Origin: Chthoniobacterales bacterium
GTDB taxonomy: Bacteria > Verrucomicrobiota > Verrucomicrobiia > Chthoniobacterales > Terrimicrobiaceae
Direction of reading: 5' to 3'
Assembly: GCA_014879575.1 (NCBI GenBank)
Contig: JACSRU010000081.1
Location: 1 to 38,855, forward strand
DNA length: 38,855 nt
The position numbers were made by a program, and so were the translations under genes. The notes under the pieces are model-generated. The model ran no database searches. It was given only the letters and a program-made list of their open reading frames with translations, and was not told where the DNA came from. This document shows, piece after piece, positions 6,470 through 24,406 of the stretch. Position 1 is the first letter of the stretch. Each line of letters starts with the position of its first letter.

Positions 6470-6545
6470 GGCTGGGTAGCTCAGTTGGCAGAGCAGAGGA
6501 CTGAAAATCCTCGTGTCGGGGGTTCGATTCCCTCTCCAGCCACCA
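6470..6545 (+). tRNA. tRNA-Phe (anticodon GAA), island integration target
   Basis: A 76-nt cloverleaf with encoded CCA: acceptor GGCTGGG/TCCAGCC with a G7-U66 wobble, D-stem GCTC/GAGC, anticodon stem GAGGA/TCCTC with loop CTGAAAA (anticodon at 6503-6505), T-stem GGGGG/CCCTC and discriminator A. Its 3' half, from the anticodon stem on, recurs at 24340-24387, which makes it the left attachment site of the island. The distal copy has C where this gene has T at 6535; the distal version would restore a G7-C66 pair, so the present gene is a host/element hybrid that remains functional in appearance. Confidence 0.97.
6496..6543 (+). repeat. attL: tRNA-Phe 3'-half direct repeat
   Basis: Thirty-nine identical bases (6496-6534), one mismatch at 6535, then eight more identical bases, compared with 24340-24387. 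It starts in the anticodon stem and extends past the discriminator base. This is the core crossover region expected for a tRNA-targeting tyrosine integrase. Confidence 0.88.
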
Positions 6546-6550
6546 CTTTC

Positions 6551-6683: not shown

Positions 6684-7823
6684 TCACAGCCTCATTCGTA
6701 TTCCAGCACGCTGTTGCTGTCGCTGCTGTTCGATTTCGAGGGCTCGGATAACAATTCGTAGGGTTCGCAGGAGCCCGATAAGGAGTTGACCTCCCCGGAA
6801 GTGATGGCCTTGAGCAATTCGTCCGATTGAAGCTCCTCGGGCAAGGAGACCAACCAGCTCTCCTGCCGTGTTCGGACGTGCAGGCCGTGTCCAGGAACGA
6901 TTTCGAGCATGTCGATTTCCGTGATGGGCAACGCCCGGTTTTCCAGACACAGCCACCCGGTGGGTCTGGCGTTTGGGTTTGGATTGATGCAACTGGCGTG
7001 TTCCTGCCAGATCGGGCTTCTCCCCGGAGCGGATTTGCGGTTGAGCGGACTGTTTGCGGGACTTGCGATCATGGTTCTTGAGTTTGTTGAGTTGGAAGTT
7101 GATTTCCGCCAAACGGCGGGAGTCGGAGGAAATGAGCTGGTTGATTTCGTCCTTGCGGAGTCGGCAACCATTCCGGGTCATAGCGGAGGCTTTTGCACCA
7201 AGGTGCTTGGTGGCGGGGCGGTCAATGCCCTGGGCTTGGAGCGAACGGCGGTTGACCCCTTCCGATACTCCAGCTTTCCGCAGAGCACGGTTACAGCGGG
7301 TTTCCCACATCTCGCGGATTCGCTCAATTTCGAGGGGGCCGAGTTTCCGGTCGTCGAGGTTGCGGATTTTCGCTTTCGAGAAATTTCCCTCGGCATCCAC
7401 GGCGCGGGTCGTCATGAAAATATGTCCGTGGACATTGCGCTGGTCGCCCTTCGTGTTCGGGTGGTGCAGGCTTACGCACAGGGCAACTCCGTAGGTGTCG
7501 CGCAGTTGCAACCCGAATCCGCGCATAAGCTCCCATTGCGCCTTCGTATTCAACTCGTGCGGCACGGCAACATCCATCGCCCGACCCACGCGGGCATCCC
7601 AACGCTTTTCGGCCTGTTCCACTCGCGCCGCCAGTTCGTCGGGCTGCATGGGCGGGCCGATGATCTGCCAGTCGATGACATCGGCTTTGTGCTTGGACCA
7701 ATCGTGCTTCTCGCCAGTGCGCTCGTTGGTCAATTTGCTGCGGGTGTCGTAGGCGATCTGCGCGACGGCGCTGTGGCCTTTGGCACGGCTGATCGGGCGG
7801 ATGGACAGGTGGAAAATCGCCAT
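6684..7823 (-). CDS. mobA: MobA/MobL-family (MOBQ) relaxase, as sequenced
   Basis: DNA relaxase that nicks oriT and pilots the transferred strand. The N-terminal catalytic domain (about 1-200) is intact: MAIFHLSIRPISR opening, AQIAYDTRSK with candidate nucleophile Tyr25, and the metal-binding His triad H121 plus H132-G-H134 in the segment NVHGHIFMTTR. The basic, glutamine-rich tail after about residue 255 looks like out-of-frame translation, whereas a frame one base downstream reads as a sensible acidic C-terminus ending at 6692. The gene therefore probably carries a frameshift near 7000-7060, or a sequencing error. The relaxase domain alone may still work. It lies downstream of the TraD-like gene on the same strand, with the candidate oriT between them. 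Confidence 0.8.
   Translation of the reverse strand: MAIFHLSIRPISRAKGHSAVAQIAYDTRSKLTNERTGEKHDWSKHKADVIDWQIIGPPMQPDELAARVEQAEKRWDARVGRAMDVAVPHELNTKAQWELMRGFGLQLRDTYGVALCVSLHHPNTKGDQRNVHGHIFMTTRAVDAEGNFSKAKIRNLDDRKLGPLEIERIREMWETRCNRALRKAGVSEGVNRRSLQAQGIDRPATKHLGAKASAMTRNGCRLRKDEINQLISSDSRRLAEINFQLNKLKNHDRKSRKQSAQPQIRSGEKPDLAGTRQLHQSKPKRQTHRVAVSGKPGVAHHGNRHARNRSWTRPARPNTAGELVGLLARGASIGRIAQGHHFRGGQLLIGLLRTLRIVIRALEIEQQRQQQRAGIRMRL
6692..7060 (-). other. Likely true C-terminal coding segment of the relaxase in the shifted frame
   Basis: In the frame +1 relative to the relaxase start, the sequence is open and reads like real protein: WLCLENRALPITEID, then EIVPGHGLHVRTRQESWLV, then an acidic tail ending SVLEYE. 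The upstream limit is approximate because the two frames overlap openly; the shift may be at the G run near 7023-7026. Not an independent gene. Confidence 0.5.
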
Positions 7824-7870
7824 GTCAGCAACCGGGATGTTGGGCTTGTAGGAAAGAAAAACCGGTGTCC

Positions 7871-7970
7871 GGCACGCGGTAGCGTGCCCTCCCCGCCAAC
7901 GGCGGGGCGCACTCGCGTCGCGGGGTTCTCCCCGCGATGCGTAAGTGCGCTTCGGCTTTCAGGGAAAGCC
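7871..7970. repeat. Cluster of four perfect-stem hairpins
   Basis: Within 100 bp: GGCACGC/GCGTGCC with loop GGTA (7871-7888), CCCCGCC/GGCGGGG with loop AAC (7891-7907), TCGCGGGG/CCCCGCGA with loop TTCT (7918-7937) and GGCTTTC/GAAAGCC with loop AGG (7954-7970). No T-run follows on either strand. The cluster fills the spacer between the relaxase and TraD-like genes and includes the candidate oriT. Confidence 0.7.
7907..7950 (+). other. oriT: Candidate origin of transfer (oriT), RSF1010/R1162-like
   Basis: The TCGCGGGG/CCCCGCGA hairpin (7918-7937) is followed by TGCG and then TAAGTGCGC (7942-7950). In RSF1010/R1162, whose MobA is the MOBQ prototype, oriT is an inverted repeat followed directly by TAAGTGCG with the nick after the last G. 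By analogy the nick would fall between 7949 and 7950 on the plus strand. The whole segment can also form a longer stem, GCGCACT (7907-7913) with AGTGCGC (7944-7950). The relaxase gene starts 84 bp away. The match is by eye and by memory of the RSF1010 core. Confidence 0.55.
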
Positions 7971-8008
7971 TCCGGTGGCTCGGAAGTCTCGTGCGCATGG
8001 ATGGCCGG

Positions 8009-8290
8009 TTACTGGTGTGGAGCTGCCACTGTGGGCGCTTCCTTCGCGGCCTGGGGAAACACGGAGCGCAAAAGGTCGGCGTCCTGCGGCGATGCCCCGG
8101 TGATGAGCCGTGGCAAAAGCGGCTGGTGATCCCGGAGGATCAACGCGCCAATGATGATCTTGGCGCGAGTGAGCTTTTTTCGCTCGGCGGTCTGGGCGGA
8201 ACGCTTGAGCCTGCGGATACGATCCTCAAGCTGCCGCCGCTCGGCTTCCAGCCGCTCGATTTTCTGTTGGGGAGATATGGTGATTTTCAT
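8009..8290 (-). CDS. TraD/MobC-like mobilisation accessory protein
   Basis: A 93-residue protein: an N-terminal coiled coil (residues about 7-35, KIERLEAERRQLEDRIRRLK), a basic segment ERKKLTRAKIIIGALIL, and a proline/alanine-rich end. The RKxxTRxKIxxGAL pattern resembles the small TraD-type conjugal proteins found beside MobA/TraA relaxases, which probably help load the relaxase at oriT. The start at 8290 was chosen because the coding character begins there; in-frame sequence upstream to 8473 is low-complexity and unlike protein. It lies upstream of and co-directional with the relaxase, across the 185-bp oriT candidate region. Confidence 0.68.
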   Translation of the reverse strand: MKITISPQQKIERLEAERRQLEDRIRRLKRSAQTAERKKLTRAKIIIGALILRDHQPLLPRLITGASPQDADLLRSVFPQAAKEAPTVAAPHQ

Positions 8291-8494
8291 AGGTGGGTTT
8301 AGCGAGGTTGGGAAAACGAGGGAGAGACGAAGGCGGATGCCCGGTCGCAGGCCAGACAGGCGGGAGCGCACCACCGCAACGACAACGGGCACTAACGACA
8401 GACGCTTCTTTTTTCCTACAAGCCGAAGAAAGACGACGTGACTTTCCCCAAAACGCCCTTTCCCGGCAGTCATTCCGCTTCCCGGTAAAAATTC

Positions 8495-8782
8495 TCATCG
8501 CGCCACCCCGCTTTCCGCTGGCTTACGTTCACTGGGCATCAGCGGCGGCAACTCCCCTTCAATCAGTCGCACATAGGCCGATTCCACCGATTCCGTGGCG
8601 ACAAGAAGATCCCGCCCTTCCCGGATAATGAGAAACCATTTCCCCTCCGCGTGCCGCGTGGCCCAAAGCATCCGGTCCACGAGTTTGGCCGAGCCGAGCA
8701 CGGCGATGATCTGCTTTTTCGTCAACGCCAGCGGACGCATTCCGTCAATGGAAACTCGCTGGTGGGAACGTGCTGTTTTCAT
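8495..8782 (-). CDS. Small HTH-like DNA-binding protein (possible excisionase or regulator)
   Basis: A 95-residue protein not assigned to a named family. Residues about 18-40 (LTKKQIIAVLGSAKLVDRML) look like a helix-turn-helix, followed by W-F-L-I-I-REGRDLLV, which reads like the strand pair of a winged helix. Such small proteins are common in integrative elements as excisionases or mobilisation regulators. It is the first gene of the minus-strand mobilisation group, 204 bp upstream of the TraD-like gene. Start at 8782 chosen because the upstream in-frame sequence lacks protein-like character. Confidence 0.6.
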   Translation of the reverse strand: MKTARSHQRVSIDGMRPLALTKKQIIAVLGSAKLVDRMLWATRHAEGKWFLIIREGRDLLVATESVESAYVRLIEGELPPLMPSERKPAESGVAR

Positions 8783-9176
8783 TTCTGCTCTCCGGTTAGG
8801 CCCAGCGTGGCGGCAGTCGATTGGGCGCTGGGGTGAAAAATTCTGATCGCATTGGTCGTTCTGATTTCCTGCGACAATGGCGCGTTTCGACACGAGCACC
8901 TGCTCCCGTTTGGGTGCAACTTTTTGCCTCCCAGCCAAAAACGAGCTTCTGTGGATCGAAGTTTCCATCTCATGCAGAAACAGATAACTCCTTGCAACTG
9001 GCGAGGTGCCCCGAATTTGGGGCAAAATTCCGGCTGTTTCTGCGATGGGCAATATATCATCCGACCTACGCTAGAGCCGGATTCCGGGCAGGCAGTTCCC
9101 GACTCGGAACAACCTGAGATGACCCACTCGCAAGATCGCGCCGACGCTCTCACGTCCGCACCGTCGCCCGGATTTC
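8783..9176. other. Intergenic region with nested inverted repeats; no convincing gene
   Basis: About 390 bp between the HTH-like gene and the Fic terminator. Open frames here are cysteine/serine-rich and do not look coding. It contains nested inverted repeats: outer arms GCAGAAACAG (8974-8983) and CTGTTTCTGC (9034-9043), inner arms TGCCCC (9007-9012) and GGGGCA (9019-9024). It probably holds the promoter of the mobilisation genes; the structure could be an RNA, an operator or an origin-like element. Confidence 0.5.
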
Positions 9177-9214: not shown

Positions 9215-10369
9215 TCAGACAGCCTCTTCGGCATTCAGAATTTCCATATACCGATCGTATGCGAACACATGTGTTTTCCCTCGGCTGGGCAATTCCCGCA
9301 GAATGCCAAGCTTCACAAGCTGCCTGGCCGACGCGTGCAAAGTCGGAATGGAAATCGGCAGACTCTTATGCGCCTCCCGGACAGAACTGACCGGATGCGC
9401 CTGAAAAAAGCGATGCACTTCGAGAGCGGAAGGAGCCGCGCGGCCGATACCGCTGATTCGCTCCCGGTCTTCCTTGAAAACTTCGAGAAGGCGAGTGGCC
9501 GTTTGAAAAGCCTGATTTCCCGTTACCGCCACTCCTTCAAAGAAAAATGCCAGCCACGCCTCCCAATCTCCTTTTTCCCGGATTTGATTGAGCAGGTCGT
9601 AATAGAGGTCGCGATGGCGTTTGAAAAACAAGCTCAGGTAAAGGAGCGGTTGACGGAGCATTCCATCCGCGCAGAGCAGCAAGGTAATGAGCAAGCGCCC
9701 AACGCGGCCATTTCCGTCCAGAAATGGATGGATGGTTTCGAACTGGACATGGGCCATGCCCGCTTTCAATAAGGTGGTGATTGCCTCGTCGTGCAGGAAT
9801 TTTTCCAGCCGGTCGAGACAGGGCATCACTTCCTCAGCCGGAGGCGGGACGAATCGGGCGTTGCCGGGACGGGTGCCGCCAATCCAATTCTGACTCGTCC
9901 GAAATTCGCCGGGCTGCTTCCGGCTGCCGCGGCCTTTGGAGAGCAGGATTTCATGGAGTTCACGAATCAGCCGCAATGAGATCGGAAATCCCTCGCGGAG
10001 GCGATTCATTCCATGCTCCAGCGCCGCCACGTAGTTGGAGACTTCCTGCACGTCATTGATGGGAACTCCCGGCGCTTCATCGTTCTCGAACAAGAGGAGA
10101 TCGGAAAGGGAGGATTGCGTGCCTTCGATCTGCGAGGAAAGGACTGCTTCCTTGCGGACATAGCTGTAGAGAAAGACACTGGTCTCGGGTAAAATCGTGG
10201 CGATACCATCCAGACGCCCCAGGGCGGAACTGGCTGCGGCAAACTGCGTTTCCAGTTCGGACGACCACACCAGTGACGGCACTGGCGGAAGCGGTTTCGG
10301 CACGAACGCGCGAGCTTTCTCGCCCACCGTGGAAATGGGGAGATATTGTCCTTGAATGCCCCGTTTCAT
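9215..10369 (-). CDS. fic: Fic-domain protein (class II, auto-inhibited AMP transferase)
   Basis: Fic enzymes transfer AMP or other phosphate-containing groups to target proteins. The 384-residue protein has the complete catalytic motif HPFLDGNGRVGR (214-225, His214 catalytic) and an N-terminal inhibitory motif S-S-Q-I-E-G (78-83) whose Glu blocks ATP binding in class II Fic proteins. So it is self-regulated and needs no separate antitoxin gene. An N-terminal Fic_N-like domain (about 20-105) and a C-terminal winged-helix-like domain (about 300-375) match the common three-part architecture. It is a single-gene transcript: its own terminator lies downstream and a palindromic operator candidate 44-71 bp upstream. 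It is divergent from the defence operon, as expected for island cargo or a guardian module. Confidence 0.93.
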   Translation of the reverse strand: MKRGIQGQYLPISTVGEKARAFVPKPLPPVPSLVWSSELETQFAAASSALGRLDGIATILPETSVFLYSYVRKEAVLSSQIEGTQSSLSDLLLFENDEAPGVPINDVQEVSNYVAALEHGMNRLREGFPISLRLIRELHEILLSKGRGSRKQPGEFRTSQNWIGGTRPGNARFVPPPAEEVMPCLDRLEKFLHDEAITTLLKAGMAHVQFETIHPFLDGNGRVGRLLITLLLCADGMLRQPLLYLSLFFKRHRDLYYDLLNQIREKGDWEAWLAFFFEGVAVTGNQAFQTATRLLEVFKEDRERISGIGRAAPSALEVHRFFQAHPVSSVREAHKSLPISIPTLHASARQLVKLGILRELPSRGKTHVFAYDRYMEILNAEEAV

Positions 10370-10573: not shown

Positions 10574-13500
10574 ATGCAAACTGCTGTGAATCAAGCAGGC
10601 GACCTATTTATTGTCGATAACTCGGACTCGGAGTGGCGAGTCCGTTCCTATCTGCTTGAATGGTGCGACCTATCCCGTGCAATCGACATTGCCACCGGAT
10701 ATTTCGAAATAGGTGCACTTCTTGCGCTCGGCGACAAGTGGCAGTCTGTTGAAAAAATCCGCATCCTCATGGGTGATGAGGTTTCCATGCGGACCAAACG
10801 CGCCTTTGCCGATGGACTGAAAAGGATCAATGGTCGTCTGGATGACAGCGTGGAATCTGAAAAGACCAAAAACGATTTCCTTCAAGATGTTCCGGCGATT
10901 GTTGAGGCCATTCGGTCGGGGAAAATCGAATGCCGCGTTTATCGCCGCGACAAATTTCATGCCAAGGCATACCTCACGCACGGAAAGGCTGCCGTCGTTG
11001 GTTCGTTTGGGTTGGTCGGCTCCTCCAACTTTACCTTTCCGGGCCTCTCGGACAATGTGGAACTCAACGTCCAGATTCGTGGCAACGATGTCCGGCTGCT
11101 TCAGGAATGGTATGACCGGCATTGGAACGACGCGGAGGACATCACGCCGGATATTCTCCGCACGCTGGAACGGCACACCGATCCGCGCACTCCGTTCGAG
11201 ATTTATTTCAAATCTCTTTACGAATTCTTTCGCGGCGAGGCTCTGACTCCCGACCTCTGGGACAGTCGGCACTCGAAGCTGTTTCCCATTCTCGACAAGT
11301 ATCAACAGGACGCTTACCGCAACCTGCTCGCTATCGCTTCCCGATACGGTGGGGCCTTCCTCTGCGACGGCGTGGGCTTGGGCAAGACCTTTGCGGGCCT
11401 CATGCTGCTGGAACGTCTTGTCGCCAGGGAAGGAAAGCGCGTCGTGCTTTTCGCACCGAAGGCGGCGCGGGAAGACGTGTGGGAACCCGCCATCGCCCGC
11501 TACCTGCCTGACTTGAACAGCGGATTCGTCAATTTCGTTCTCCGCAACCATACCGATCTTCAACGAAAAGGAAAATTCCAGCGCGACCTTCAACTCACTC
11601 TGAAAGATGCGGATGTCGTCATCATTGACGAGGCCCACCATTTCCGCAATCCCGGCATCAAAGGTGAAGGGCTTCGCGAGCCATCGCGTTACCGGCGATT
11701 ACAGGATGCGTTGCATTCGAGCGACCGGAAGAAACAGTTGTTTTTCCTTACCGCCACTCCGGTGAACAATTCGGTTCACGATTTCCGACACATCATCGAA
11801 CTCTTTACGAACGGAGCCGAACAGTATTTCGCATCCAACCTCGGCATTCATAGTGTCCGTGCCCACTTCATTGCGCTGGAGCGTCAGATTCTTGGGAAAG
11901 TCCCAAAAGCTCAGGCTGACTTGGAATTCGGTTCGGAAATTCTTGAGGCGGAGCAAACCCTTCGTTCGGACTCTATTTTTGACGCGCTGGTCGTTCAGCG
12001 CAGCCGGGCCTACGTGAAGCGCAGCCAGCAACAGCAAGGTTCCAGCGCGGCTTTATTCCCTGAACGGTCAGCCCCCCAAGTCGTCGCCTATAACTTGAAG
12101 GCCACTTATGGCCGGTTACTTCAAAGTGTCGAAAAGGCTTTCAACAAACAACAACCTCTCTTCGTCCTGAGCATTTATTTTCCTCTGGCTTATTGGAAAG
12201 GCGACAAGGACAGCCCGGACTACCAAAAATGGGATGAGGGCCGTCAAAAGCAGGTCGTAACGTTGATTCGCACGCTCTTTTTGAAGCGGTTTGAAAGCTC
12301 GTCAAAAGCCTTCCAAGGTTCCTGTTGGCGACTGCTTCAGAAGATTCTGGCATGGGTAACGGTGCATACCGAGAGCGAGCACGATCAGGCCCGTTTGAAT
12401 CGTTGGAAACAAAAACATGGCGACTTGATCGGATATGTTCACAACCATCAACGGGAGCTTTGGCCGGAGGAGGCGGAAGAAGACGAGGCGGAGGAGTTTT
12501 TAGGCGAGGACATTCTGAATCAGGTCAAAAAACTGGATCGGGAAGAATTCGATGTGGATGCCATCCTCGATGATTGTTTCGAGGATTTGAACCAGCTCGC
12601 GGAATTCCTTGCGCTTCTCTCCGAAGTCAAGCCAGAACGTGACGACAAGCTCAAGGCACTTATCAAGCTGCTAAAGACGGACAAGGTTCTAAAAAACGAG
12701 AAAGTTCTCCTTTTCACCGAGTTCGCCGACACGGCGCGCTACCTTCAGCATGAATTAGAGGCGGCGGGCATTGCGGGCGTTCACCGCATTGATGGCGGGA
12801 GTTCGCAAAGGCAGCGGAGCGAGGTCATTCGCCGATTCGCTCCTTATTATAATAATACGACTCCGGCGGAAATTGCCGGGGAAGGCTTGGAGCCGATTCG
12901 CGTCCTGGTCAGCACGGACGTGCTTTCGGAAGGTCTGAACCTTCAGGACGCCACCCGTTTGATCAATTACGATCTCCATTGGAATCCCGTTCGGCTCATG
13001 CAACGCATCGGCCGCGTGGATCGCCGGATGAATCCGGAGATCGAAACGCGCATCATTGCCGATGATCCACGGCAGCAGAAGGTGCGCGGTAAAGTGGAAT
13101 TCTGGAATTTTCTTCCCCCGGAGGAATTGGACGAACTGCTTCGTCTGTTCCAGCGGGTCGCGGGCAAAACGCTCGTCATTTCCCGCACCCTTGGCATCGA
13201 GGGGAGAAAGCTCCTCACGCCGGATGACAATTTTGATCCCGTCAAGGAACTGAACGAGCAATGCGACGGCACGCTGAGCGACACCGAGCAGCTTCGCCTG
13301 GAATATGACGAGTTAGTCAAGGCGCACCCGGAACTAGCGAAGTCTTTACCCGATCTGCCGTTGAAGGTGTTTACCGGCAAGGCATCCCCGCCGCCCGACG
13401 TGAAAGCGGTCTTTTTCTGCCATCGCATTCCCCGGCCCGATCCCAATCTCATTGACGCGGAGTCCGGCGAACCTCGCTGGTCCGACTCCGCCGGACTTAC

Positions 13501-13732
13501 CGTCTGGACTTGCTGCGATCTGGAAACAAAAAAAGTGGCCGTGTCGCCCGGCGGCATTGCCGCCCTGATTCGTTCCATTCCGCAAACCCCGCGTCACTGC
13601 GCGCTAGATCGTGCCGCGCTCTCCGAACTTCGCAAGAAAGTCGAAAAACAACTCGTCGCCGACCATCTGCGCCCCTTGCAGGCCCCTGCGGGCGTTAGTC
13701 CGGTGCTCAAGTGCTGGATGGAGCTAAATTGA
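10574..13732 (+). CDS. PLD-nuclease/SNF2-type helicase fusion (defence)
   Basis: A 1052-residue protein with an N-terminal phospholipase-D-type domain (about 30-190; H129-x-K131 and GSSNFTFPGL form the HKD-like site) fused to a superfamily 2 Snf2/RapA-like motor. Helicase motifs: DGVGLGKT (265-272), DEAH (352-355), TATP (393-396), STDVLSEGLN near 780 and QRIGRVDR near 810. A helicase with a PLD domain is the expected translocase-nuclease of a restriction system. It is the first gene of a six-gene co-directional cluster, with 9 bp to the next gene. Together with the type-ISP-like methylase two genes on, it looks like the motor and nuclease half of a split ISP enzyme, with PLD replacing the usual Mrr nuclease. 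One HKD motif implies that it dimerises to cut. Confidence 0.92.
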   Translation: MQTAVNQAGDLFIVDNSDSEWRVRSYLLEWCDLSRAIDIATGYFEIGALLALGDKWQSVEKIRILMGDEVSMRTKRAFADGLKRINGRLDDSVESEKTKNDFLQDVPAIVEAIRSGKIECRVYRRDKFHAKAYLTHGKAAVVGSFGLVGSSNFTFPGLSDNVELNVQIRGNDVRLLQEWYDRHWNDAEDITPDILRTLERHTDPRTPFEIYFKSLYEFFRGEALTPDLWDSRHSKLFPILDKYQQDAYRNLLAIASRYGGAFLCDGVGLGKTFAGLMLLERLVAREGKRVVLFAPKAAREDVWEPAIARYLPDLNSGFVNFVLRNHTDLQRKGKFQRDLQLTLKDADVVIIDEAHHFRNPGIKGEGLREPSRYRRLQDALHSSDRKKQLFFLTATPVNNSVHDFRHIIELFTNGAEQYFASNLGIHSVRAHFIALERQILGKVPKAQADLEFGSEILEAEQTLRSDSIFDALVVQRSRAYVKRSQQQQGSSAALFPERSAPQVVAYNLKATYGRLLQSVEKAFNKQQPLFVLSIYFPLAYWKGDKDSPDYQKWDEGRQKQVVTLIRTLFLKRFESSSKAFQGSCWRLLQKILAWVTVHTESEHDQARLNRWKQKHGDLIGYVHNHQRELWPEEAEEDEAEEFLGEDILNQVKKLDREEFDVDAILDDCFEDLNQLAEFLALLSEVKPERDDKLKALIKLLKTDKVLKNEKVLLFTEFADTARYLQHELEAAGIAGVHRIDGGSSQRQRSEVIRRFAPYYNNTTPAEIAGEGLEPIRVLVSTDVLSEGLNLQDATRLINYDLHWNPVRLMQRIGRVDRRMNPEIETRIIADDPRQQKVRGKVEFWNFLPPEELDELLRLFQRVAGKTLVISRTLGIEGRKLLTPDDNFDPVKELNEQCDGTLSDTEQLRLEYDELVKAHPELAKSLPDLPLKVFTGKASPPPDVKAVFFCHRIPRPDPNLIDAESGEPRWSDSAGLTVWTCCDLETKKVAVSPGGIAALIRSIPQTPRHCALDRAALSELRKKVEKQLVADHLRPLQAPAGVSPVLKCWMELN

Positions 13733-13741
13733 TTCGCCGCG

Positions 13742-14305
13742 ATGGCCTACCGATCTAAACAAACGAAAAAAGAAAAACTGGAGGATTTAGCGGTTTATGA
13801 TCTTCCCGCTCCTTTGCAGGCCAAACTGGAAGTTGTTCGTCAGGCAATCAATTCCCTAAAAGCTGAGGCCGCAGATTGGGGAGTGAATCGTGAGTTTAGT
13901 CCCGACGGTCGTTTCCTTGGTGATGTCGGAGAACTTATTGCGAAACTATTCTTCGGAGTCGCGTTAAACGTGAAGCAACAAAAGGGCCACGACGCAATTG
14001 ATGCAGAGGCAGACGCAGAAGCAACCATCGCCGGTCGCACAGTAGAGGTGAAATTACGATCTCGAAGCACGAATATCCATTTCAGCGATATTCCAGATAT
14101 TGCCTTGGTCATTTACGTCTCGCCAGATCGTCTCAAATGGGGAGTGGTTTGCAATGGTCCTGGAGAAACCCTTTTAGCGAATGCGAAGCAACTACCCGAT
14201 GGAAAGATGAGCACGGACTGTCACAAGCTGCTCGAACGGCAGAAGCAAGTTCAATCTTCCGATCCGCAGTTGCGTCATTCATTGCCAGTCAAACCCGCCA
14301 ACTAA
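13742..14305 (+). CDS. Small PD-(D/E)XK-like nuclease-fold protein
   Basis: A 187-residue protein that I cannot place in a named family with certainty. The central region has the order of a PD-(D/E)XK active site: Glu64 in GDVGELIAKLFF, Asp84/Asp87 in GHDAID, and E102-V-K104 in TVEVKLRS, followed by a strand rich in hydrophobics (DIALVIYV). This resembles DUF6998-type restriction-associated proteins. It lies between the helicase (9 bp) and the methyltransferase (7 bp), so it is probably a third subunit of the same system, either the nuclease or a substrate-recognition factor. The N-terminus is basic (SKQTKKEKLE). Confidence 0.7.
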   Translation: MAYRSKQTKKEKLEDLAVYDLPAPLQAKLEVVRQAINSLKAEAADWGVNREFSPDGRFLGDVGELIAKLFFGVALNVKQQKGHDAIDAEADAEATIAGRTVEVKLRSRSTNIHFSDIPDIALVIYVSPDRLKWGVVCNGPGETLLANAKQLPDGKMSTDCHKLLERQKQVQSSDPQLRHSLPVKPAN

Positions 14306-14312
14306 CCTTTCC

Positions 14313-17300
14313 ATGCCCTCAGACCTTCGCTCCATCCGCACTTTCGATCAGCTTATCCGCTACCTCGGCGATGAACTCGACTGGCCCGTCGAGGACTACG
14401 AACTCGACGAACTCGCCTTCGACTACGACCCCGCCGATCTGGGCCTGAAGGACGAGGACGCCGCCGCCATCAAGCCCCCTATCCGCCAGCTTCGCCCGTT
14501 GCCCGGAGGCCAGCCGTGGGGAGTCTTCTTTGTCGAGTTTGAAAAGAAGCGCCTCCCCATCGTGGTTCTTCGCCGCATTCTTTCGCATCTCGTCGTGAAA
14601 AAACGGGAAGCCGCGAACAAAGGCGGCAACAAGCGGTGGAATGCCCAGGACCTTCTGTTCATTTCCGCCTTCGGCGATGAAGGCAGCATTGACCGGGAAA
14701 TCGCCTTCGCCCACTTCCATCAGGAATCCGGCGATCTCCCCACGCTTCGCGTCCTCGGCTGGGACGGGGGCAATACCGCGCTGACCCTTGCCGGAGTAGC
14801 ACACACGCTCCGCGAAAAACTCCACTGGCCGGAGAAGGGCGAACCCGCCGACAAATGGCGCGAACGCTGGAGCAGCGCCTTCCGCCATCGGATCGGACAT
14901 CGCGTTCGCACCGCCGACAATCTCGCTGAGGTTCTCGCGTCGCTTGCCCGTGGCATTCGCGACCGCTGCCGTGCGATGCTCGCCGCCGAGAGCGAGCGCG
15001 GCCAGCTTACTAAACTCTTCAAGGCATTTCAGACTGCACTCATCCACGATCTCACCCCGGAGACTTTCGCCGACACCTACGCGCAGACCATCACCTATGG
15101 CCTCCTCACCGCTGCCATTTCCCGCACGGAAATGAGCGAAGGCGCGCGCGGCACCGCCCTTATCGCCGAAAACGTCGCGGACATCGTTCCCGTCACCAAT
15201 CCCTTCCTCAAGGAAATGCTACAAACCTTCCTCAAGGTCGGCGGGCGAAAGGGCGGCATTGATTTCGACGAACTCGGCATTCAGGACGTGGTGGAACTCC
15301 TTCGCGGCGAGGAAACCGATCTTCCTGCCGTCATCAAAGATTTCGGCCACAAAAACCCCGAAAAAGATCCCGTCATTCACTTCTACGAGCATTTCCTCTC
15401 CGCCTATGATCACGCGCAAAAGGTGAAGCGCGGCGTCTTCTACACCCCGCCCGCCGTCGTTTCCTACATCGTGCGCAGCGTCCATGAACTCCTCCAGACC
15501 GAGTTTGGCCTCGAAGACGGTCTTGCCTCCACCGTCACCTGGGGTGAAATGCAAAGCCGCATCCCCGGCCTCGCGCTGCCCAAGGTGCGCGTGCGCAAAG
15601 CCGGTGATTCGCTCGGACAGGAAGTGGATATTCCTGCCGACACACCCTTTGTCCAAATCCTCGATCCTGCCACCGGCACCGCCACCTTTCTCGTCGAAGT
15701 CATTGACCTTATTCATCGAACCCTGGCCGCGAAATGGAAAAAGGAAGGCCGCAACGACGCTCAGCGGCGGGCCGCGTGGAATGAATACGTGCCGAAGCAC
15801 CTGCTCCCGCGCCTTCACGGCTACGAACTGATGATGGCGCCCTACGCCATCGCCCATATGAAAATCGGGCTGAAGCTCTACGAAACCGGCTACCGCTTCG
15901 GTACCGAGGAACGCGCCCGCGTCTATCTTACTAACGCACTCGAGCCGGCACACGAAGTTTCTGACCAACTTGAATCGCTTGCCCCGGCTCTTGCGCATGA
16001 GGCCAAGGAAGTGAACGCCATTAAGAGCAGTCAGCGTTTCACTATCGTCATCGGCAATCCGCCGTATTCAAAAATATCGTCTAACCTGACCCCTGAAATG
16101 CGAGCCACGGTCGAAAGGTATCGGTATCTTGATGGCATCAAAATTAAAGAGCGTGGTGCGCTCCAATTCGAGATTAATCTCCAAGACGACTACGTGAAAT
16201 TTTTCCGTCTGTGTGAAGAACGGGTGGCTGCATCGAATGTCGGAATACTTGGACTTATCACAAACAATGGTTATCTCAGCACGCCTACTCTTCGCGGAAT
16301 GCGCGATTCGTTACTTGAGACGTTTAAGTCAATATGGGTCGTTGACCTTCACGGGCACTTGGCAAAGGGAGAAACTGGCGCGACAGATGAACAAGAAGAA
16401 AATGTCTTCGACATTGTCCAGGGCGTATCGTTGTTTTTAGCCCATCGTATACTTCCTAAAACGGAAGATGCTGTAGTATTTCACGCAGAGCAGTATGGCG
16501 CACGGCGGAGTAAATACGCATTCCTGCAATCAAACACTCGTTCGTCAACGAATTGTATAAAGATTAGCCCATCCCCTGCTTTTTATCTCTTCATCCCGCA
16601 TAGTTCGGACTTAGCACAGGAATGGAAAGAATTCATCGGCCTTTCTGACATATTTCCGAAGAATAGCGCGGGGATTATTACGGCGCGTGATGGCCTTGTA
16701 ATTTCAGAGGATTCCGAAGGATTAGCTGACCGTCTTCAACGATTTAGTCGAGCCACCGAGGCGGATGCTTCGATATACGAACAGTTCAATTTCTCCGAGA
16801 GCAAACGCTTCGATTTGCGGGACGCCCAAGAGGATCTGCGTAAACTAAAGTCTTTCACTGAGCCGATTCGTCGGATGCTTCACCGCCCGTTCGATGCTCG
16901 TTTCGTTTTCTTTCATCCGAGCGTTGTCTGGAGCCTTTCGCGGCCAATGGCAGATTTGATGAAAGACGGAAAGAATTTAGCGTTGATTGCTACGCGTCAA
17001 GTGACGCGTGCTCAGTTCGAGCACGCCTTTGTCTCGCGGAACATCATCGAAATCAAAGCGTGCTCACACGACCGGAATACTCAGATATTCCCCCTCTTCC
17101 TCCGAATCTCGGATGGAGAACTTGCCCTGTCTAGGGGGGCCGCCGCAAATCTGAATTCGGCATTCTTTGCAAGCACCGCGAAGTCTCTTGGGCTGAAAGC
17201 GAACATGGCTACATATGAACTCGGCCACGATAAAGAACTCACGCCTGCTCGTTTATTTAATTACGCCTACGCAATCCTTTATTGCCCAAGCTACCGTGAG

Positions 17301-17819
17301 AGATATTTCGAGTTCTTGCGGAGCGATTTCCCGCGCCTGCCGCTGCCGGGAAACATCGAGCTTTTCCGCGCACTGGCCGCGCTCGGTGGCGAACTCGTCG
17401 CGCTTCACCTGCTCGAATCGCCCAAGCTCGCCAAGCCCATCACGCGCTTTTACGGCAGCGACCGCCAGCTCGTGCGCATCGGCGAGAAGGGAAAGAAACT
17501 TCTCGCCGTAAAGAACGGTGTGGGCCGTGTGCCAATCAACGCCACCAGCGGCTTCGAGGGGGTGTCGCCGGCCGTGTGGGACTTCCACATCGGCGGCTAC
17601 CAAGTCTGCCACAAATGGCTCGACGACCGCCGCAAAGCTGGACGTTCACTTTCCGACGACGACATCGCCCACTATCACAAAGTCGTTGTCGCCCTCTCCG
17701 AAACCATCCGCCTCATGGCCGAAGTAGATGCCGCCATCGAACAACACGGCGGCTGGCCGGGGGCGTTCGCCGGAGAGAAGGCAGAAAACCTCAATCCCGA
17801 AGCGGCTTCAGTGAAATGA
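14313..17819 (+). CDS. Type-ISP-like N6-adenine DNA methyltransferase with specificity region
   Basis: A 1168-residue modification and specificity subunit. Residues 1-365 form a helical N-terminal region; GVFYTP (374-379) opens the methylase, DPATGTATF (451-459) is the SAM-binding motif I, LHGYELMMAPYAIAHMKIGL is the signature block of single-chain type ISP enzymes, and NPPY (582-585) is the catalytic motif IV. The C-terminal part is the presumed target-recognition domain. Unlike LlaGI/LlaBIII, it has no Mrr or helicase part; those functions would come from the gene two upstream. The sequence composition shifts sharply just after NPPY: about 16060-17310 is visibly richer in A+T than either flank, suggesting that the specificity region was exchanged. 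It ends 10 bp before the SEFIR gene. Confidence 0.9.
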   Translation: MPSDLRSIRTFDQLIRYLGDELDWPVEDYELDELAFDYDPADLGLKDEDAAAIKPPIRQLRPLPGGQPWGVFFVEFEKKRLPIVVLRRILSHLVVKKREAANKGGNKRWNAQDLLFISAFGDEGSIDREIAFAHFHQESGDLPTLRVLGWDGGNTALTLAGVAHTLREKLHWPEKGEPADKWRERWSSAFRHRIGHRVRTADNLAEVLASLARGIRDRCRAMLAAESERGQLTKLFKAFQTALIHDLTPETFADTYAQTITYGLLTAAISRTEMSEGARGTALIAENVADIVPVTNPFLKEMLQTFLKVGGRKGGIDFDELGIQDVVELLRGEETDLPAVIKDFGHKNPEKDPVIHFYEHFLSAYDHAQKVKRGVFYTPPAVVSYIVRSVHELLQTEFGLEDGLASTVTWGEMQSRIPGLALPKVRVRKAGDSLGQEVDIPADTPFVQILDPATGTATFLVEVIDLIHRTLAAKWKKEGRNDAQRRAAWNEYVPKHLLPRLHGYELMMAPYAIAHMKIGLKLYETGYRFGTEERARVYLTNALEPAHEVSDQLESLAPALAHEAKEVNAIKSSQRFTIVIGNPPYSKISSNLTPEMRATVERYRYLDGIKIKERGALQFEINLQDDYVKFFRLCEERVAASNVGILGLITNNGYLSTPTLRGMRDSLLETFKSIWVVDLHGHLAKGETGATDEQEENVFDIVQGVSLFLAHRILPKTEDAVVFHAEQYGARRSKYAFLQSNTRSSTNCIKISPSPAFYLFIPHSSDLAQEWKEFIGLSDIFPKNSAGIITARDGLVISEDSEGLADRLQRFSRATEADASIYEQFNFSESKRFDLRDAQEDLRKLKSFTEPIRRMLHRPFDARFVFFHPSVVWSLSRPMADLMKDGKNLALIATRQVTRAQFEHAFVSRNIIEIKACSHDRNTQIFPLFLRISDGELALSRGAAANLNSAFFASTAKSLGLKANMATYELGHDKELTPARLFNYAYAILYCPSYRERYFEFLRSDFPRLPLPGNIELFRALAALGGELVALHLLESPKLAKPITRFYGSDRQLVRIGEKGKKLLAVKNGVGRVPINATSGFEGVSPAVWDFHIGGYQVCHKWLDDRRKAGRSLSDDDIAHYHKVVVALSETIRLMAEVDAAIEQHGGWPGAFAGEKAENLNPEAASVK

Positions 17820-17829
17820 ACTCCATGTC

Positions 17830-19305
17830 ATGACCAATGGGGACACAGCGGAGGCGACTGCAAAGGTATTCATTAGCTATACCCAAGAGTCCGACGAGCA
17901 CAGCCACCACGCCCTAGCTTTGTCAAACGCACTACGCGGGTTGGGTTTTGAGAGCGACATAGATCAATACCATGTCAACGAGCGTTGGCCGTCCTGGATG
18001 GAAGGACGGCTTGAATGGGCAGATTTTGTCCTGGTGATCTGCACCGAAACCTACCTCCGCAGATGGAAGAACGACGAAAAGGACGGGGTCGGCCTCGGAG
18101 CGCAGTGGGAAAGCCTTCTGACGAGGCAATACCTTTATGAATCCCCCCAGCGAAACGACAAATTCATTCCTGTTGTTTTCGAGAGCGCCGATCTGAAATT
18201 CATTCCCAAACCGCTGGCGGATGTGACTCGCGTGGTCGTTGGGCCGCAGTTGGAATTCCTCGACCGCCTTCGATCTCGTCTCCTGGGAATTCCTCCGGCT
18301 GAAATGCCGCCCATCCGAACGTCACTGGCTCCCATCGCCGTCGCGGAGGGCTTCTTTCAAAAATCATCACTCATCGGTGAAAATCAGTTTGATCCTCAGG
18401 ACATTGGACTTCACCACGAGCCGGAGAGCATCGCTTCCAATCTTTTTCCTGTCGTGTTTCCCGAGACGATTTACTCCGCCAAAATTGGTGTGAAGCGAGG
18501 CTCGAAAACGGAATTTTTCAGCCGCGTCAAAAAGGCTTGGGAAAAACTGGGAAATTCAGGAAAGCCGCCATCCGATTTCTTCGTGGATTATGGCATCGTT
18601 TATACTTTTCAAAACTTTGAGCAACCGCTCTGGAAGGAGCTTTTTGCCAACAAGACATTGATTAACCCCGGTCATTTCAAAGCCTCCAAATGGGCGGAGT
18701 CGGCAGTCATGGGCGACAGGAGCAAATTTATCAAGCTGCTGAACCGTTGTTTGCAGCATCTTTGCGAGCACAACAGCACGCCGTATCAGATGGCATACTC
18801 CAAGAAAATGAAGTGCCATTTATTTGCCGTCAAAGCAGGAACACGGGAAGGCACCTTGAAAGCTCTGGCGCTCAAGACATTCGGAGATAGGACGATTTAC
18901 AAAGCAATTCCCGATAAGAAATCGGACGATCCGAATGCAATTCAACACTGGAAGCATGAGGCGTTCCGGCACAAGTTCATGCGCTTCGGTCAAAAGTGGT
19001 ATTTTATATTGGTTCCATTCTGGGCTTTCACCTGCGACGGCGTAAACAGCCCGAGCAAATGGCAAAAGAAGTCGAGTTCCAACATGCGCAAACCGGAGAA
19101 GAATCGCGCCGTCCTGGGGCATGTTTTATTCTGGGCCAGCGTCTTGTGCCGGGAGCCTGATCTAATCGAGTCTGGAGAGGGATTTCGGATTCAAAGGCCA
19201 ATAGGGCTTTCTCTGTCTCCATCCATCAAGGACGCGGATTGGGTGAAGCTCGCAAAGTCTGACGAGCAGAAGGAAATGACCGCTGATATGGGGGTATTGC
19301 TGTGA
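17830..19305 (+). CDS. SEFIR-APAZ protein, effector partner of short Argonaute
   Basis: A 491-residue protein. Residues about 12-150 form a SEFIR (TIR-related) domain: KVFISYTQES, GLGFESDIDQY, W-P-S-W-M and ADFVLVICTETYLRR. The rest (about 200-485) has the position, size and context of an APAZ domain, which stands in for the missing N/PAZ parts of short Argonautes and docks on them. By analogy with TIR-APAZ/pAgo (SPARTA), guide-directed target recognition would trigger the SEFIR domain, possibly an NAD-consuming activity, causing abortive infection; this is inferred. The APAZ call rests mainly on the next gene, whose start overlaps this stop by 4 nt (GTGA), so the two are translationally coupled. 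SEFIR-APAZ versions are known from surveys of short pAgos. Confidence 0.85.
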   Translation: MTNGDTAEATAKVFISYTQESDEHSHHALALSNALRGLGFESDIDQYHVNERWPSWMEGRLEWADFVLVICTETYLRRWKNDEKDGVGLGAQWESLLTRQYLYESPQRNDKFIPVVFESADLKFIPKPLADVTRVVVGPQLEFLDRLRSRLLGIPPAEMPPIRTSLAPIAVAEGFFQKSSLIGENQFDPQDIGLHHEPESIASNLFPVVFPETIYSAKIGVKRGSKTEFFSRVKKAWEKLGNSGKPPSDFFVDYGIVYTFQNFEQPLWKELFANKTLINPGHFKASKWAESAVMGDRSKFIKLLNRCLQHLCEHNSTPYQMAYSKKMKCHLFAVKAGTREGTLKALALKTFGDRTIYKAIPDKKSDDPNAIQHWKHEAFRHKFMRFGQKWYFILVPFWAFTCDGVNSPSKWQKKSSSNMRKPEKNRAVLGHVLFWASVLCREPDLIESGEGFRIQRPIGLSLSPSIKDADWVKLAKSDEQKEMTADMGVLL

Positions 19306-20720
19306 TCAAGCTGGATAAAATCATCGGCGAACCGCTCTTGGAATTCGGCAGTGGCGGCCAGTCTTTCGATATACGGGAGGGAATCACGCGATATGGTCCC
19401 GTGGACGTAGCAACTCCACGCGCAAAAACGGAAGTTAAAATTGGGCTGGTAGGAACCGCGAAAAGCATTGAGGCATTTTCGGCGTGGATGCGGACTTGCG
19501 CCAATGGCATCAAGGGAGACAATCCGCTGAATCCAAATTTGAACCCGGATTTTCCGGGGTTGGCTCCGTCAGTCGGTTTTCGCGCCAAATTTGAAACTCA
19601 TGAAAGTTGGGTATCCGAGCTTTCAGAGCGGGAGTTGAAGGAGCTTTGTGAAAAGGATGGCGCTGTCAGCCTTCTGGCCGAGCTATTCCACGACAAAATC
19701 CGCTCACTTTTTGAACTGAGCGCGAGCAAGCCGGATGTCGTGATTTGCCTGCCTCCCGATATAGTGAGGAAGAGGGTAAAACCTCGGGCCTACGAAAACG
19801 AGGAGTTTGACGACCTCGACGACAGCGAGAAAGGCGTTGATTTTCACGATTATCTCAAGGGGCGTTGCCTTGTTTCCCGCTCCCTTTTCCAACTCGTGTG
19901 GCCTCGCACATACGGTGAGAGTGCGCGAGAAGTCCAAGACCCAGCCACTCGGGCATGGAATCTTTTTGGAGGTTTATTTTACAAAGCAGGCGGCATTCCT
20001 TGGAAGCTGCTTCGTCCGCCTTCCGGGAAAAGAACCTGCTATGTCGGCATCTCTTTCTCGGTGCGTGAGGAGGGCGGCTATATGCACTCAAGCCTTACCC
20101 AAGTTTTCAACGACAAAGGCGAAGGGACAATTCTCCGTGGAGGCATGGCGCATAAGTCAGAGGAAGATCACGAGGTGCATCTCTCGAAGGAGGCAGCGGA
20201 AAAGCTACTGGCTGACGCGATTCAAAACTACAAAAAGGCGAATGACGATCACCTGCCGGATCGCGTGGTGGTTCACAAGTCATCGGGATACGACCGGGCA
20301 GAATTGGACGGCTTCAACAAGGCAGCGGATGCTGTGGGCGTGAAATTCTGCGATCTTGTGGCGCTGAATCGTTCCGACATCCGGTTTTTCCGGCATGGAT
20401 CGTATCCGCCCCTGCGTGGCTCGCATATCCTTTTGGATGAGATGAATTCCGTTCTCTACACGCGGGGGAGTGTTCCATTTTACCGCAAGTATCCCGGCCC
20501 CTACGTGCCGCGCCCGCTTCATGTGCGCTATTTTCAAACCGAGCGAAGCCAAACGGAATTGGCGCTGGAAATTCTGGCGTTGACGAAATTGAACTGGAAC
20601 AAGACGCAATTTGATTCCCTCTATCCGATTACACTCGGTGGTTCGAGACGGATTGGAGAAATTTACAAATGGTGTCACGATCCTCCTTCTGATCCACTGA
20701 GTTACGCATTTTTTATGTAG
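19302..20720 (+). CDS. Short prokaryotic Argonaute (MID-PIWI, catalytically inactive)
   Basis: A 472-residue protein with only MID (about 90-240) and PIWI (about 240-472) domains, the layout of short pAgos. PIWI features: strand CYVGISF (246-252), in which Ser251 occupies the first catalytic Asp position; YDRAEL after VVVHKSSG; HGSYPPLRGSHIL; and a C-terminal hydrophobic end SYAFFM that normally reaches the guide 5' end pocket. The DEDX slicer residues are not evident, so it should bind a guide and target without cutting. GTG start at 19302, overlapping the SEFIR-APAZ stop by 4 nt. Recognition was from sequence patterns alone; the close neighbour makes the call strong. Confidence 0.9.
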   Translation: MIKLDKIIGEPLLEFGSGGQSFDIREGITRYGPVDVATPRAKTEVKIGLVGTAKSIEAFSAWMRTCANGIKGDNPLNPNLNPDFPGLAPSVGFRAKFETHESWVSELSERELKELCEKDGAVSLLAELFHDKIRSLFELSASKPDVVICLPPDIVRKRVKPRAYENEEFDDLDDSEKGVDFHDYLKGRCLVSRSLFQLVWPRTYGESAREVQDPATRAWNLFGGLFYKAGGIPWKLLRPPSGKRTCYVGISFSVREEGGYMHSSLTQVFNDKGEGTILRGGMAHKSEEDHEVHLSKEAAEKLLADAIQNYKKANDDHLPDRVVVHKSSGYDRAELDGFNKAADAVGVKFCDLVALNRSDIRFFRHGSYPPLRGSHILLDEMNSVLYTRGSVPFYRKYPGPYVPRPLHVRYFQTERSQTELALEILALTKLNWNKTQFDSLYPITLGGSRRIGEIYKWCHDPPSDPLSYAFFM

Positions 20721-20730
20721 TTTTTTTGCA

Positions 20731-21630
20731 ATGGAGGCCGAACCGGAAAAAACATCGGACATTTGCCGCCTTTTCGTGGATGAGGCGGGCGTCCCGGAAA
20801 TCTTCGACAAGAAGGGGCGTGTGATCGTCGGAAATGAAGGGTGCTCTCATTACTTCATGCTCGGAATGCTCGAAGTGGATGATCCAGAGAAGCTGGCTCT
20901 CGCCCTGAACGGCTTGCGTGAGGAGATGCGGAATGACCCCTATTTCTCCTCATCAGAATCCTTCGATCCCGCACGGAAAAGGACGGCGCTGCTCTTTCAC
21001 GCCAAGGATGATCTGCCGGAGGTCAGGGTGAAAGTTTTCGACCTCCTTCGGTCTTTTGGTTCTGAAATCCGCTTCCGGGCGGTGATCTGCGACAAGCAAA
21101 TCATCCGGGCACGCGAGGAAGCGCGCCGCAGTCAGCAACCGGGGTATCGCTACAATCCCGATCATCTTTACGACGAACTGGCCCGTGCGTTGTTCTCGAA
21201 ATTCAGCCGGATGGCGGATGTTTACCAGCTCTGGATTGCCAAGCGGGGAAACAAGGAACGCAACGCGGCGCTGCTTCAGGCGATAGACGACGCGGAGGGG
21301 GATTTTGCCCGCAGTTTCGGGTTTTCACGCGGCGGGGTGGATCGGTGGAAAGCCACCATCACGAACCCGAGGGTCACGGTTTGTTTGCAGGCCACCGACT
21401 ATTTCCTCTGGGCGCTTCAGCGGTTCTATGAGCCGCGTGAGCATCCCACAACCAAGGAAGTGATCCATGAGGATCGCTACCTCAACGCGATTTGGCCTCA
21501 AGTCAGCCAGATTCACGATCTGCATTTCGGCCCGACACAGGGCAGTTTCTTCACCGTGGGGAACCCGCTGACCGTGGAAACTCGGTTCGGCCCGAAGAAG
21601 ACCCGGAAAAAGAAAATGCCGCAAGTATAG
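20731..21630 (+). CDS. DUF3800 protein (RNase H-like fold)
   Basis: A 299-residue DUF3800 protein, recognised by the N-terminal LFVDEAG (Asp17, Glu18), a following YFMLGML strand, LLFHAKDDLPEVR and a second acidic patch near ATDYFLWAL. The family has a predicted RNase H-like fold and may act as a metal-dependent nuclease; no function is established that I can cite. The C-terminus is very basic (PKKTRKKKMPQV), suiting nucleic-acid binding. It begins 10 bp after the pAgo stop and closes the six-gene cluster, so it may be a third component or guide processor of the Argonaute module. A run of seven T lies just upstream of the ATG and no Shine-Dalgarno is seen. Confidence 0.85.
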   Translation: MEAEPEKTSDICRLFVDEAGVPEIFDKKGRVIVGNEGCSHYFMLGMLEVDDPEKLALALNGLREEMRNDPYFSSSESFDPARKRTALLFHAKDDLPEVRVKVFDLLRSFGSEIRFRAVICDKQIIRAREEARRSQQPGYRYNPDHLYDELARALFSKFSRMADVYQLWIAKRGNKERNAALLQAIDDAEGDFARSFGFSRGGVDRWKATITNPRVTVCLQATDYFLWALQRFYEPREHPTTKEVIHEDRYLNAIWPQVSQIHDLHFGPTQGSFFTVGNPLTVETRFGPKKTRKKKMPQV

Positions 21631-21807: not shown

Positions 21808-22953
21808 TCATGAGCGTCGTTCCAGTTTTTCACGGACGGTGTCAATCTCGGCAGCCAGACGTTTTTCGTCAGGCAACGCGGTAAGATATTCGCGCACGAG
21901 AACCTTGTTTGGCAGGTTGTCCGTGGCATATCGCACGAGTGCCCCGCCTTTTCCGGCGCAAAGAATGATGCCCACAGGCGGGTTTTCTTCCGGGTGTGAC
22001 CAATGCTCGCGGGCATAGTTCAGGTAAACGTGCATTTGCCCGGCGTCTGCATGGGTGAACCGACCGAGCTTCAAGTCGATCACGACGAGGCAGCGCAATT
22101 TCCGATGAAACAGAAGCAGATCGACCCGATACCATCCATCATCGATGCGGAGTCGCCGCTGGCGGGCGATGAAAGCGAAGTCGTTGCCGAGTTCGAGCAA
22201 GAAGTGTTCGAGATGATGCACGAGGGCATCTTCCAACTCGGACTCGGAGTATTCGTCCTTCAAACCGAGAAATTCGAGCACAAGCGGGTCTTTGATTTCT
22301 TCGTCGGCGGTAAGCGCATCGCCGAGGCGGGCAACTGTCCCGTCTCGGAGCATTTTCGTTTTGTTTTTCGAGAGAGCCGTGCGCTCGTAGAATTGGCTAT
22401 CCATCTGTCGCCGTAACTGGCGGACAGACCATCCGCCGCGTATGGCTTCCGCTTGATAAAAGGCGAATGCCTCGGGCGAGCGGGAATGACCAATCAACTC
22501 GACGTAATGTGACCACGGCAAGGGGAAGGCGCGAGCGAGATCGGACAAGGCCAGAGGGGAAGATTTTGCAGACGCTGTCTGCAAAATGTTCGACGCTGTC
22601 GAACCAATCCCGCTCAATTTGTTCGACAGTGTCGAACGAATTGCGTCGGGCTGAAACATCAGATAAAATTGCCTAAATCGGATCAAATTTGGCCGTGCAA
22701 ATCCTCGGCCAAACCGCAGGGTCAAATCTTTCGACAGACGCTCCAATAATCCTTCTCCATACTCGGCTCGCTTTTTTCCGCCCTGCTCGAACTCCACGAT
22801 GCGCCGTCCGACCTCCCAATAGGTGGCCGTCATGATCGAATTAACCGCCCGCGCTGAAGTCCGACGCGCGGCGTCGAGCAATTCGACCACGCCGGAAAGA
22901 ACGGCATCGTAGCCTTGCAACGGTTTTGTTTTTGGGACTGGTTTCTTTTTCAC
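21808..22953 (-). CDS. YhcG/DUF1016-family PD-(D/E)XK nuclease
   Basis: A 381-residue protein with the family's N-terminal helical domain (MTATYWEVGRRIVEFEQGG; PNLIRFRQFYLMF; FPLPWSHYVELIG) and a C-terminal nuclease domain: WYRVDLLLFHRKLRCLVV then IDLKLG, with D-x-K in place of the common E-x-K, plus a late PPVGIILCAGK. Found in many mobile elements and thought to act on branched DNA or replication forks; exact role unproven. The GTG at 22953 is favoured because VKKKPVPKTKPLQGYDAVLSG matches the family's N-terminus; an ATG at 23064 would overlap the integrase by 74 nt. Gap to the upstream integrase is 37 nt on the same strand, so they are probably co-transcribed. The linker between the domains holds three palindromes. 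Confidence 0.85.
   Translation of the reverse strand: MKKKPVPKTKPLQGYDAVLSGVVELLDAARRTSARAVNSIMTATYWEVGRRIVEFEQGGKKRAEYGEGLLERLSKDLTLRFGRGFARPNLIRFRQFYLMFQPDAIRSTLSNKLSGIGSTASNILQTASAKSSPLALSDLARAFPLPWSHYVELIGHSRSPEAFAFYQAEAIRGGWSVRQLRRQMDSQFYERTALSKNKTKMLRDGTVARLGDALTADEEIKDPLVLEFLGLKDEYSESELEDALVHHLEHFLLELGNDFAFIARQRRLRIDDGWYRVDLLLFHRKLRCLVVIDLKLGRFTHADAGQMHVYLNYAREHWSHPEENPPVGIILCAGKGGALVRYATDNLPNKVLVREYLTALPDEKRLAAEIDTVREKLERRS
22564..22637. repeat. Three spaced palindromes inside the YhcG coding region
   Basis: TTTTGCAGAC/GTCTGCAAAA around GCT (22564-22586), GTTCGAC/GTCGAAC around GCT (22588-22604) and GTTCGAC/GTCGAAC around AGT (22621-22637). All have 3-bp centres and lie in the poorly conserved linker between the two domains. 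They encode SNILQTAS-like peptide repeats. Either the linker is a nucleic-acid-level insertion or it is a cluster of protein-binding sites. Confidence 0.75.
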
Positions 22954-22990
22954 AAGGAAGGCAACCGCATAAGGGTGGAAGGATTGTGAC

Positions 22991-24286: not shown

Positions 24287-24294
24287 GGCAAAGC

Positions 24295-24314
24295 TTATAC
24301 GCCATTTTAACGCC
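24295..24314 (+). repeat. Right copy of end-proximal 20-bp repeat (possible integrase arm site)
   Basis: Starts TTATACGCCA and ends ACGCC; 17 of 20 identical to 6652-6671. A further partial copy, AATTTATAC, lies at 24321-24329. It sits between the integrase start and attR, overlapping where the integrase promoter must be, so binding here could autoregulate int. Confidence 0.4.
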
Positions 24315-24339
24315 AACGTCAATTTATACTGTAAAATCG

Positions 24340-24387: not shown

Positions 24388-24406
24388 TCCTTTTCATAAG
24401 TAGATG

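Follow-up and report, generated by a model that had tools for sequence, protein, structure and literature searches.

Does the hairpin upstream of a relaxase gene in this Chthoniobacterales contig act as an oriT, and if so, what would it mobilise? The window (the whole stretch of 38,855 nucleotides that was analysed) carries on its plus strand, at 7907-7950, a structure which the first-pass annotation described as an RSF1010/R1162-like oriT core beside a MOBQ relaxase. Read directly from the sequence, the structure is real: a 5' outer arm GCGCACT (7907-7913), an inner stem of 12 bp (arms 7914-7925 and 7930-7941) with a 4-nt loop TTCT (7926-7929), the dinucleotide TA (7942-7943) and an outer, or nick, arm AGTGCGC (7944-7950), such that the 9-mer TAAGTGCGC lies directly 3' of the hairpin on the plus strand (7942-7950). 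The site, identified from sequence, DNA fold and conservation, is located 118 nt upstream of the relaxase gene, on the opposite strand. DNA folding also predicts two flanking hairpins on the plus strand (7871-7888 and 7892-7906) and a further one (7954-7970) just 3' of the predicted nick.

TAAGTGCGC has a single match across the window at one mismatch or fewer, whereas chance alone would give about 4.7; thus the 9-mer is not significant by itself. As single-stranded DNA, the 141 nt from 7860 to 8000 fold at -50.5 kcal/mol, against a mean of -31.7 kcal/mol for shuffled sequences (z = -6.7), and none of the 200 shuffles folds as well. It is the combination of fold, genome distribution and conservation, rather than the 9-mer alone, that exceeds chance.

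The gene downstream of the site (6684-7823, minus strand) encodes a 379-aa MOBQ-type (MobA_MobL) relaxase, as assigned by PF03389, NF041496, PDB 4HT4 and individual residues. The match to PF03389 is strong (E = 1.6e-38; 133 bits, cut-off 26.7). NF041496 (MobQ) is the best NCBIfam match (E = 2.1e-49), and its 168 bits are below the 200-bit cut-off, which makes this relaxase a divergent member. The sole solved relative found by sequence, at low identity, is the staphylococcal NES nicking enzyme (PDB 4HT4; E = 4.8e-11), the enzyme of a staphylococcal plasmid (PMC4814116). Y25 aligns with its catalytic position and H132/H134 with its His cluster; the roles of the catalytic Tyr (motif I) and the His cluster (motif III) follow PMC6856555. 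In motif II the relaxase has A82 and D84 and so keeps one acid, D84; Ala82 stands opposite a Glu of 4HT4, and RSF1010 is reported with two Glu in this motif (PMC6856555). The family match and the catalytic residues support the assignment of the adjacent relaxase to the MOBQ class; the NF041496 score and Ala82 speak against it.

When the window is compared with G067, another genome of the order, the codon phase of the substitutions indicates that the relaxase frame is under purifying selection between 7172 and 7823. At the 3' end of the gene they reveal an overlapping ORF in another frame (6692-7171, minus strand): between 6850 and 7000 the substitutions switch to its codon phase, so that its middle part is selected as coding. 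Homologues of this ORF occur in loci L021, L023, L024 and L028, and it persists in relics in genome G029 from which the relaxase N-terminus is missing. It has no Pfam match; we considered and rejected an RSF1010-type MobB, to which it shows no similarity.

How closely does the site resemble the textbook one? In RSF1010/R1162 (IncQ1, MOBQ), as here, a hairpin is followed by TAAGTGCG/C, with / marking the nick, and the nicked strand is opposite to the downstream relaxase gene (L051; PMC4814116). By analogy with that nick, the cut is predicted at 7949/7950 on the plus strand, and the position given by the first-pass annotation is therefore probable. The stem sequence differs from that of RSF1010/R1162, and the oriT here is carried by a chromosomal island. 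The published MOBQ consensus, as quoted in PMC3832669, has ACC before and CCCT after the core; here the 9-nt core matches and both flanks differ, so the full consensus NWACCNNTAAGTGCGCCCTYNN is absent. Furthermore, RSF1010-type geometry places a single-stranded nick arm outside the inverted repeat, whereas here AGTGCGC pairs in the predicted fold with the upstream GCGCACT at 7907-7913, an outer arm that is absent from both IncQ1 records examined, and the predicted nick lies inside a stem. The proposed RSF1010/R1162 architecture thus holds in part: the hairpin and the 9-nt core stand, while the flanks are missing and the nick arm is paired in an extended stem. With the hairpin and the adjoining TAAGTGCGC 5' of the relaxase gene and on the opposite strand, the site is very probably an oriT of a known, ordinary kind, although its cut position lies within a hairpin that is longer than that of the textbook plasmid.

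We examined whether the site is conserved within the order. Among 197 genomes searched with the relaxase, 12 match; a repeat survey by Pfam family returned the known genomes again and added a single locus, L138 (G426:C58). By the relaxase, the closest named relatives are contigs of a Terrimicrobiaceae MAG, so that a verrucomicrobial host is probable. In G067 the close relaxase (69% identity) is intact, and a site lies at the same -118 distance. Between the two genomes the inner stem is altered with compensation, from TCGCGGGG/CCCCGCGA in the window to TCGTGGGG/CCCCACGA. In the intergenic region (7824-8008), 13-21% of sites differ per codon phase from the G067 copy, and third positions of the relaxase frame lie far above this (43-54%). 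The gapped hairpin-nick pattern was found in two of the 213 genomes of the order, those of the window and G067, in both cases beside the relaxase; the control, the same pattern read backwards, was present in one of 213.

G029 has four partial relaxase copies, all without the relaxase N-terminus and without the site. One of them, L023, has the highest relaxase identity (88%) and yet lacks both, which counts against the oriT reading; there, one deletion takes out the equivalent of window positions 7600-8956, covering the site and the N-terminus. As these two are contiguous, their joint losses in G029 are not independent evidence. Conservation in related elements is seen in the G067 copy and not in the four partial copies.

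A wider comparison covered 44 MOBQ loci: 17 genome loci (L020 and 16 relaxase matches, one of them the window) and 27 plasmid records, taken from 40 listed of 3885 matching records. The truncated loci L023, L024 and L028 and short partial matches were excluded beforehand. The scan covered the orientation opposite to the relaxase, where two-orientation scans had put the best sites; a site was accepted at a score cut-off of 2.7, and L033, which has three mismatches, was removed by hand. A like-oriented hairpin and TAAGTGCGC-like motif were accepted upstream of 34 of the 44 relaxases (9/17 genome loci and 25/27 plasmids), and the remaining ten loci (L020, L030, L031, L033, L035, L036, L039, L040, L053 and L062) gave no accepted site. 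Position, orientation, conservation and compensatory changes all point to a MOBQ-type oriT beside a MOBQ-type relaxase.

On the other side of the site is a gene for a small coiled-coil protein of 93 aa (8009-8290, minus strand). Its third codon positions have more substitutions (0.40) than the others (0.14 and 0.17), and its homologue in L021 is 77% identical; it has no Pfam match above cut-off, and its position suggests that it is probably a MobC-type relaxosome accessory protein. A small accessory gene, an intergenic oriT region of about 180 nt and a relaxase also make up the loci of MOBQ4 plasmids (PMC6856555) and of small E. coli MOBQ plasmids such as pLAO75, and the outer arm is common to the site and plasmid loci L046 and L054. 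In MOBQ4 and small E. coli MOBQ plasmids, however, mobC is divergent (PMC6856555), whereas the small gene here is co-directional with the relaxase; it runs towards the oriT instead of away from it, and this counts against the oriT reading. A second small conserved protein (8495-8770, minus strand), recognised by third-position bias, shares 87.5% identity with its counterpart in L021 and 83% with that in L107. An inverted repeat (7840-7864 and 8403-8427) flanks the oriT and the 8009-8290 gene; it was dropped as a feature, as G067 keeps it in part, namely the copy that adjoins the relaxase start.

What, then, would the oriT mobilise? The site lies within an island of 17.9 kb bounded by 54-nt direct repeats of the tRNA-Phe 3' end that are 94% identical: attL (6496-6549, plus strand), which forms the 3' part of the tRNA-Phe gene (6470-6545), and attR (24340-24393, plus strand). 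From left to right the island comprises the relaxase, the oriT, the two small genes, a Fic-domain protein (9215-10369, minus strand; PF13784 and PF02661; 96% identical in L023), the defence cargo, a YhcG-family nuclease (21808-23064, minus strand; PF06250, PF17761 and PDC-S02) and a leftward tyrosine integrase (22991-24397, minus strand; PF00589 at its cut-off, phrog_1 integrase E = 1.6e-29), the true start of which is uncertain as the ORF runs into attR. The cargo (10574-21630, plus strand; Pfam and PADLOC) encodes a PLD-helicase, DUF6998, type IIG/ISP restriction-modification, a SEFIR protein, a short pAgo and DUF3800. The first three, in a row at 10574-17819 (plus strand), may form one system. 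At 17830-20720 (plus strand) a SEFIR protein with a short-pAgo partner domain is followed by the short pAgo, probably an abortive-infection pair. Directly right of attR is a possible toxin-antitoxin pair (24520-25046, minus strand); its ParE match is weak (E = 0.011) and falls short of the cut-off.

Among the island ORFs that were scanned, none was found to encode a type IV channel component. The assembly (3.6 Mb, 178 contigs) has no match to the VirB4 family PF03135, three weak matches to PF02534 and one MobA_MobL relaxase gene. Att repeats at a tRNA gene with an integrase, a relaxase and oriT of its own and no channel genes are the features of an integrative and mobilizable element, and we are highly confident that the site is the oriT of such an element, 17.9 kb long and inserted in tRNA-Phe. 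A clean empty attachment site was sought in relatives and not found. In G101 the alkaline phosphatase still adjoins tRNA-Phe, and the sequence right after this tRNA gene has no match to the window proteins searched, save a segment covering the tRNA; but the window's right flank is found at another place in G117, where there is no tRNA.

Other readings of the locus need to be weighed. The hairpin array could be a regulatory site, or a transcript structure, of the relaxase operon instead of an oriT. It is probably transcribed, as it lies between two co-directional minus-strand genes, and a TTTCCTACAAGC motif just upstream of the relaxase start is conserved in both close copies. Nevertheless, the nick-like motif has the side and orientation found in MOBQ plasmids, whose upstream small gene is mostly divergent, and it is the nick core, rather than the inner stem, that hardly varies across the accepted sites; we consider a regulatory role in place of transfer very improbable. 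A chance hairpin beside a chance 9-mer might be entertained on the grounds that TAAGTGCGC alone is expected at one mismatch, but it is strongly disfavoured by conservation and has almost no weight against the fold (z = -6.7), a pattern confined to two of 213 genomes and there at the relaxase, and the 34 of 44 loci in the survey.

It is also unlikely, in our view, that the element is a defective relic, with an oriT and a relaxase that are recognisable and immobile, so that only the integrase and the cargo matter. N-terminally truncated relaxase relics do lie beside tRNA genes in G029, and the few weak PF02534 matches and missing PF03135 match in the assembly would fit such a relic; on the other hand, the relaxase frame in the window is intact, with a third-position bias that indicates purifying selection, and the att repeats are still 94% identical.

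Taking the site as an oriT, the one lead beyond routine annotation is the covariation of its outer arm with the nick arm. In the published model the relaxase binds the proximal arm, and nic is in single-stranded DNA past a U-turn (PMC4814116). We compared the nick hexamer with the 6 nt adjoining the inner stem, counting wobble pairs as half, and found at least five of six positions paired in 20 of 34 sites; in the control, with the left arm shifted 8-30 nt further upstream, this was so in just 0-2 of 33-34. Variant nick arms have matching outer arms: GTGGGC is accompanied by GACCAC, ACCCAC or GCCCAC, ATGGGC by GCCCAT, CTGGGC by TCCCAG, TTGCGC by GCAA and CTGCGC by GCAG. When nick arms were randomly reassigned among sites, the observed mean pairing was reached in none of 5000 trials; this control ignores relatedness, although most nick variants come from distant hosts. 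The IncQ1 (RSF1010-type) records L051 and L068 score low (2.5 and 3.0), making the textbook site an exception within this sample of 34; other low or near-low scorers include L050, L057, L066 and L069. A fold-based count (nick-arm mean pairing above 0.5 in 33/34) was rejected as not discriminating, as the IncQ1 sites pass too, through pairing elsewhere.

Viral contigs (479 listed loci) gave a relaxase test in the same direction that is not significant and does not confirm the outer arm: among the matches listed, a relaxase was found within 500 nt of the site at 3/240 loci with matched arms and 0/239 with mismatched arms (P = 0.25, by Fisher's exact test). Short-loop inner stems, again among the matches listed, were present at 7/240 and 4/239 (P = 0.54), and a first pass without loop limit gave 13/247 and 10/239 among the matches listed.

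We tentatively suggest, giving it somewhat less than an even chance, that MOBQ origins are generally two-state: in addition to the known short hairpin, in which the nick arm is free, most would have an outer arm able to pair with the nick sequence itself and kept so as the nick changes, the closed form would be a lock, RSF1010 would be the exception that lost the arm, and the site in the window would be among the most complete. In the closed form the nick would be hidden, or the rejoining 3' end kept base-paired, so that the lock might act on cutting or on rejoining. The pMV158 MOBV oriT, in which the nick is concealed or exposed by alternative hairpins (PMC5863519), is a mechanistic analogue only, as relaxase class and sequence differ. 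No description of outer-arm/nick-arm covariation was found in the open-licence literature searched; inverted sequences containing the nick site are mentioned for Gram-positive origins (PMC10333310), so the pairing itself may be known already.

There are signs that such islands have moved. Two stretches of G029, a genome from a different family, closely resemble the window: a relaxase fragment (90.0% identity over 1105 nt) and the Fic region (91.1% over 1485 nt); rpoB, at 78.6% identity between the two genomes, is below the island DNA. The sequences are evidence that a related island has, in part, crossed from one family to another. In G029, tRNA-Phe is followed by an element with an integrase, by another att core and then by the relaxase and Fic pieces (L023:10557-14567, L064:12372-12447), an arrangement which looks like a tandem insertion of two elements. 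The module is found beside other tRNA genes in relatives: tRNA-Met (L021), tRNA-Leu (L024) and tRNA-Arg (L028). G067 also has a second island end (L107:5585-10138), where an att core is accompanied by a homologue of the 8495-8770 gene and by an integrase of 77% identity.

In the route that we propose, the integrase would excise the element between the 54-nt repeats, and the MOBQ-type relaxase, probably aided by the 8009-8290 protein, would bind the hairpin and, through Y25, cut the plus strand at 7949/7950. The coupling protein and type IV channel of a helper would export the cut strand 5'-first, from 7950 rightwards to 24393, through the att junction and with the relaxase gene last. The earlier expectation that the defence cargo enters the recipient before the relaxase gene agrees with this predicted nick. 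The returning site would rejoin the strand ends, and the integrase would insert the element at the recipient's tRNA-Phe. If the covariation holds, it would provide a structural rule for recognising MOBQ origins, by the sequence complementary to the nick arm that precedes the stem; it would also add a regulatory step, open to experiment, that the RSF1010 model would have hidden. Given a suitable helper, the oriT and its relaxase would offer a concrete route by which an island with several defence systems, from a bacterial group that has been little studied, could be moved.
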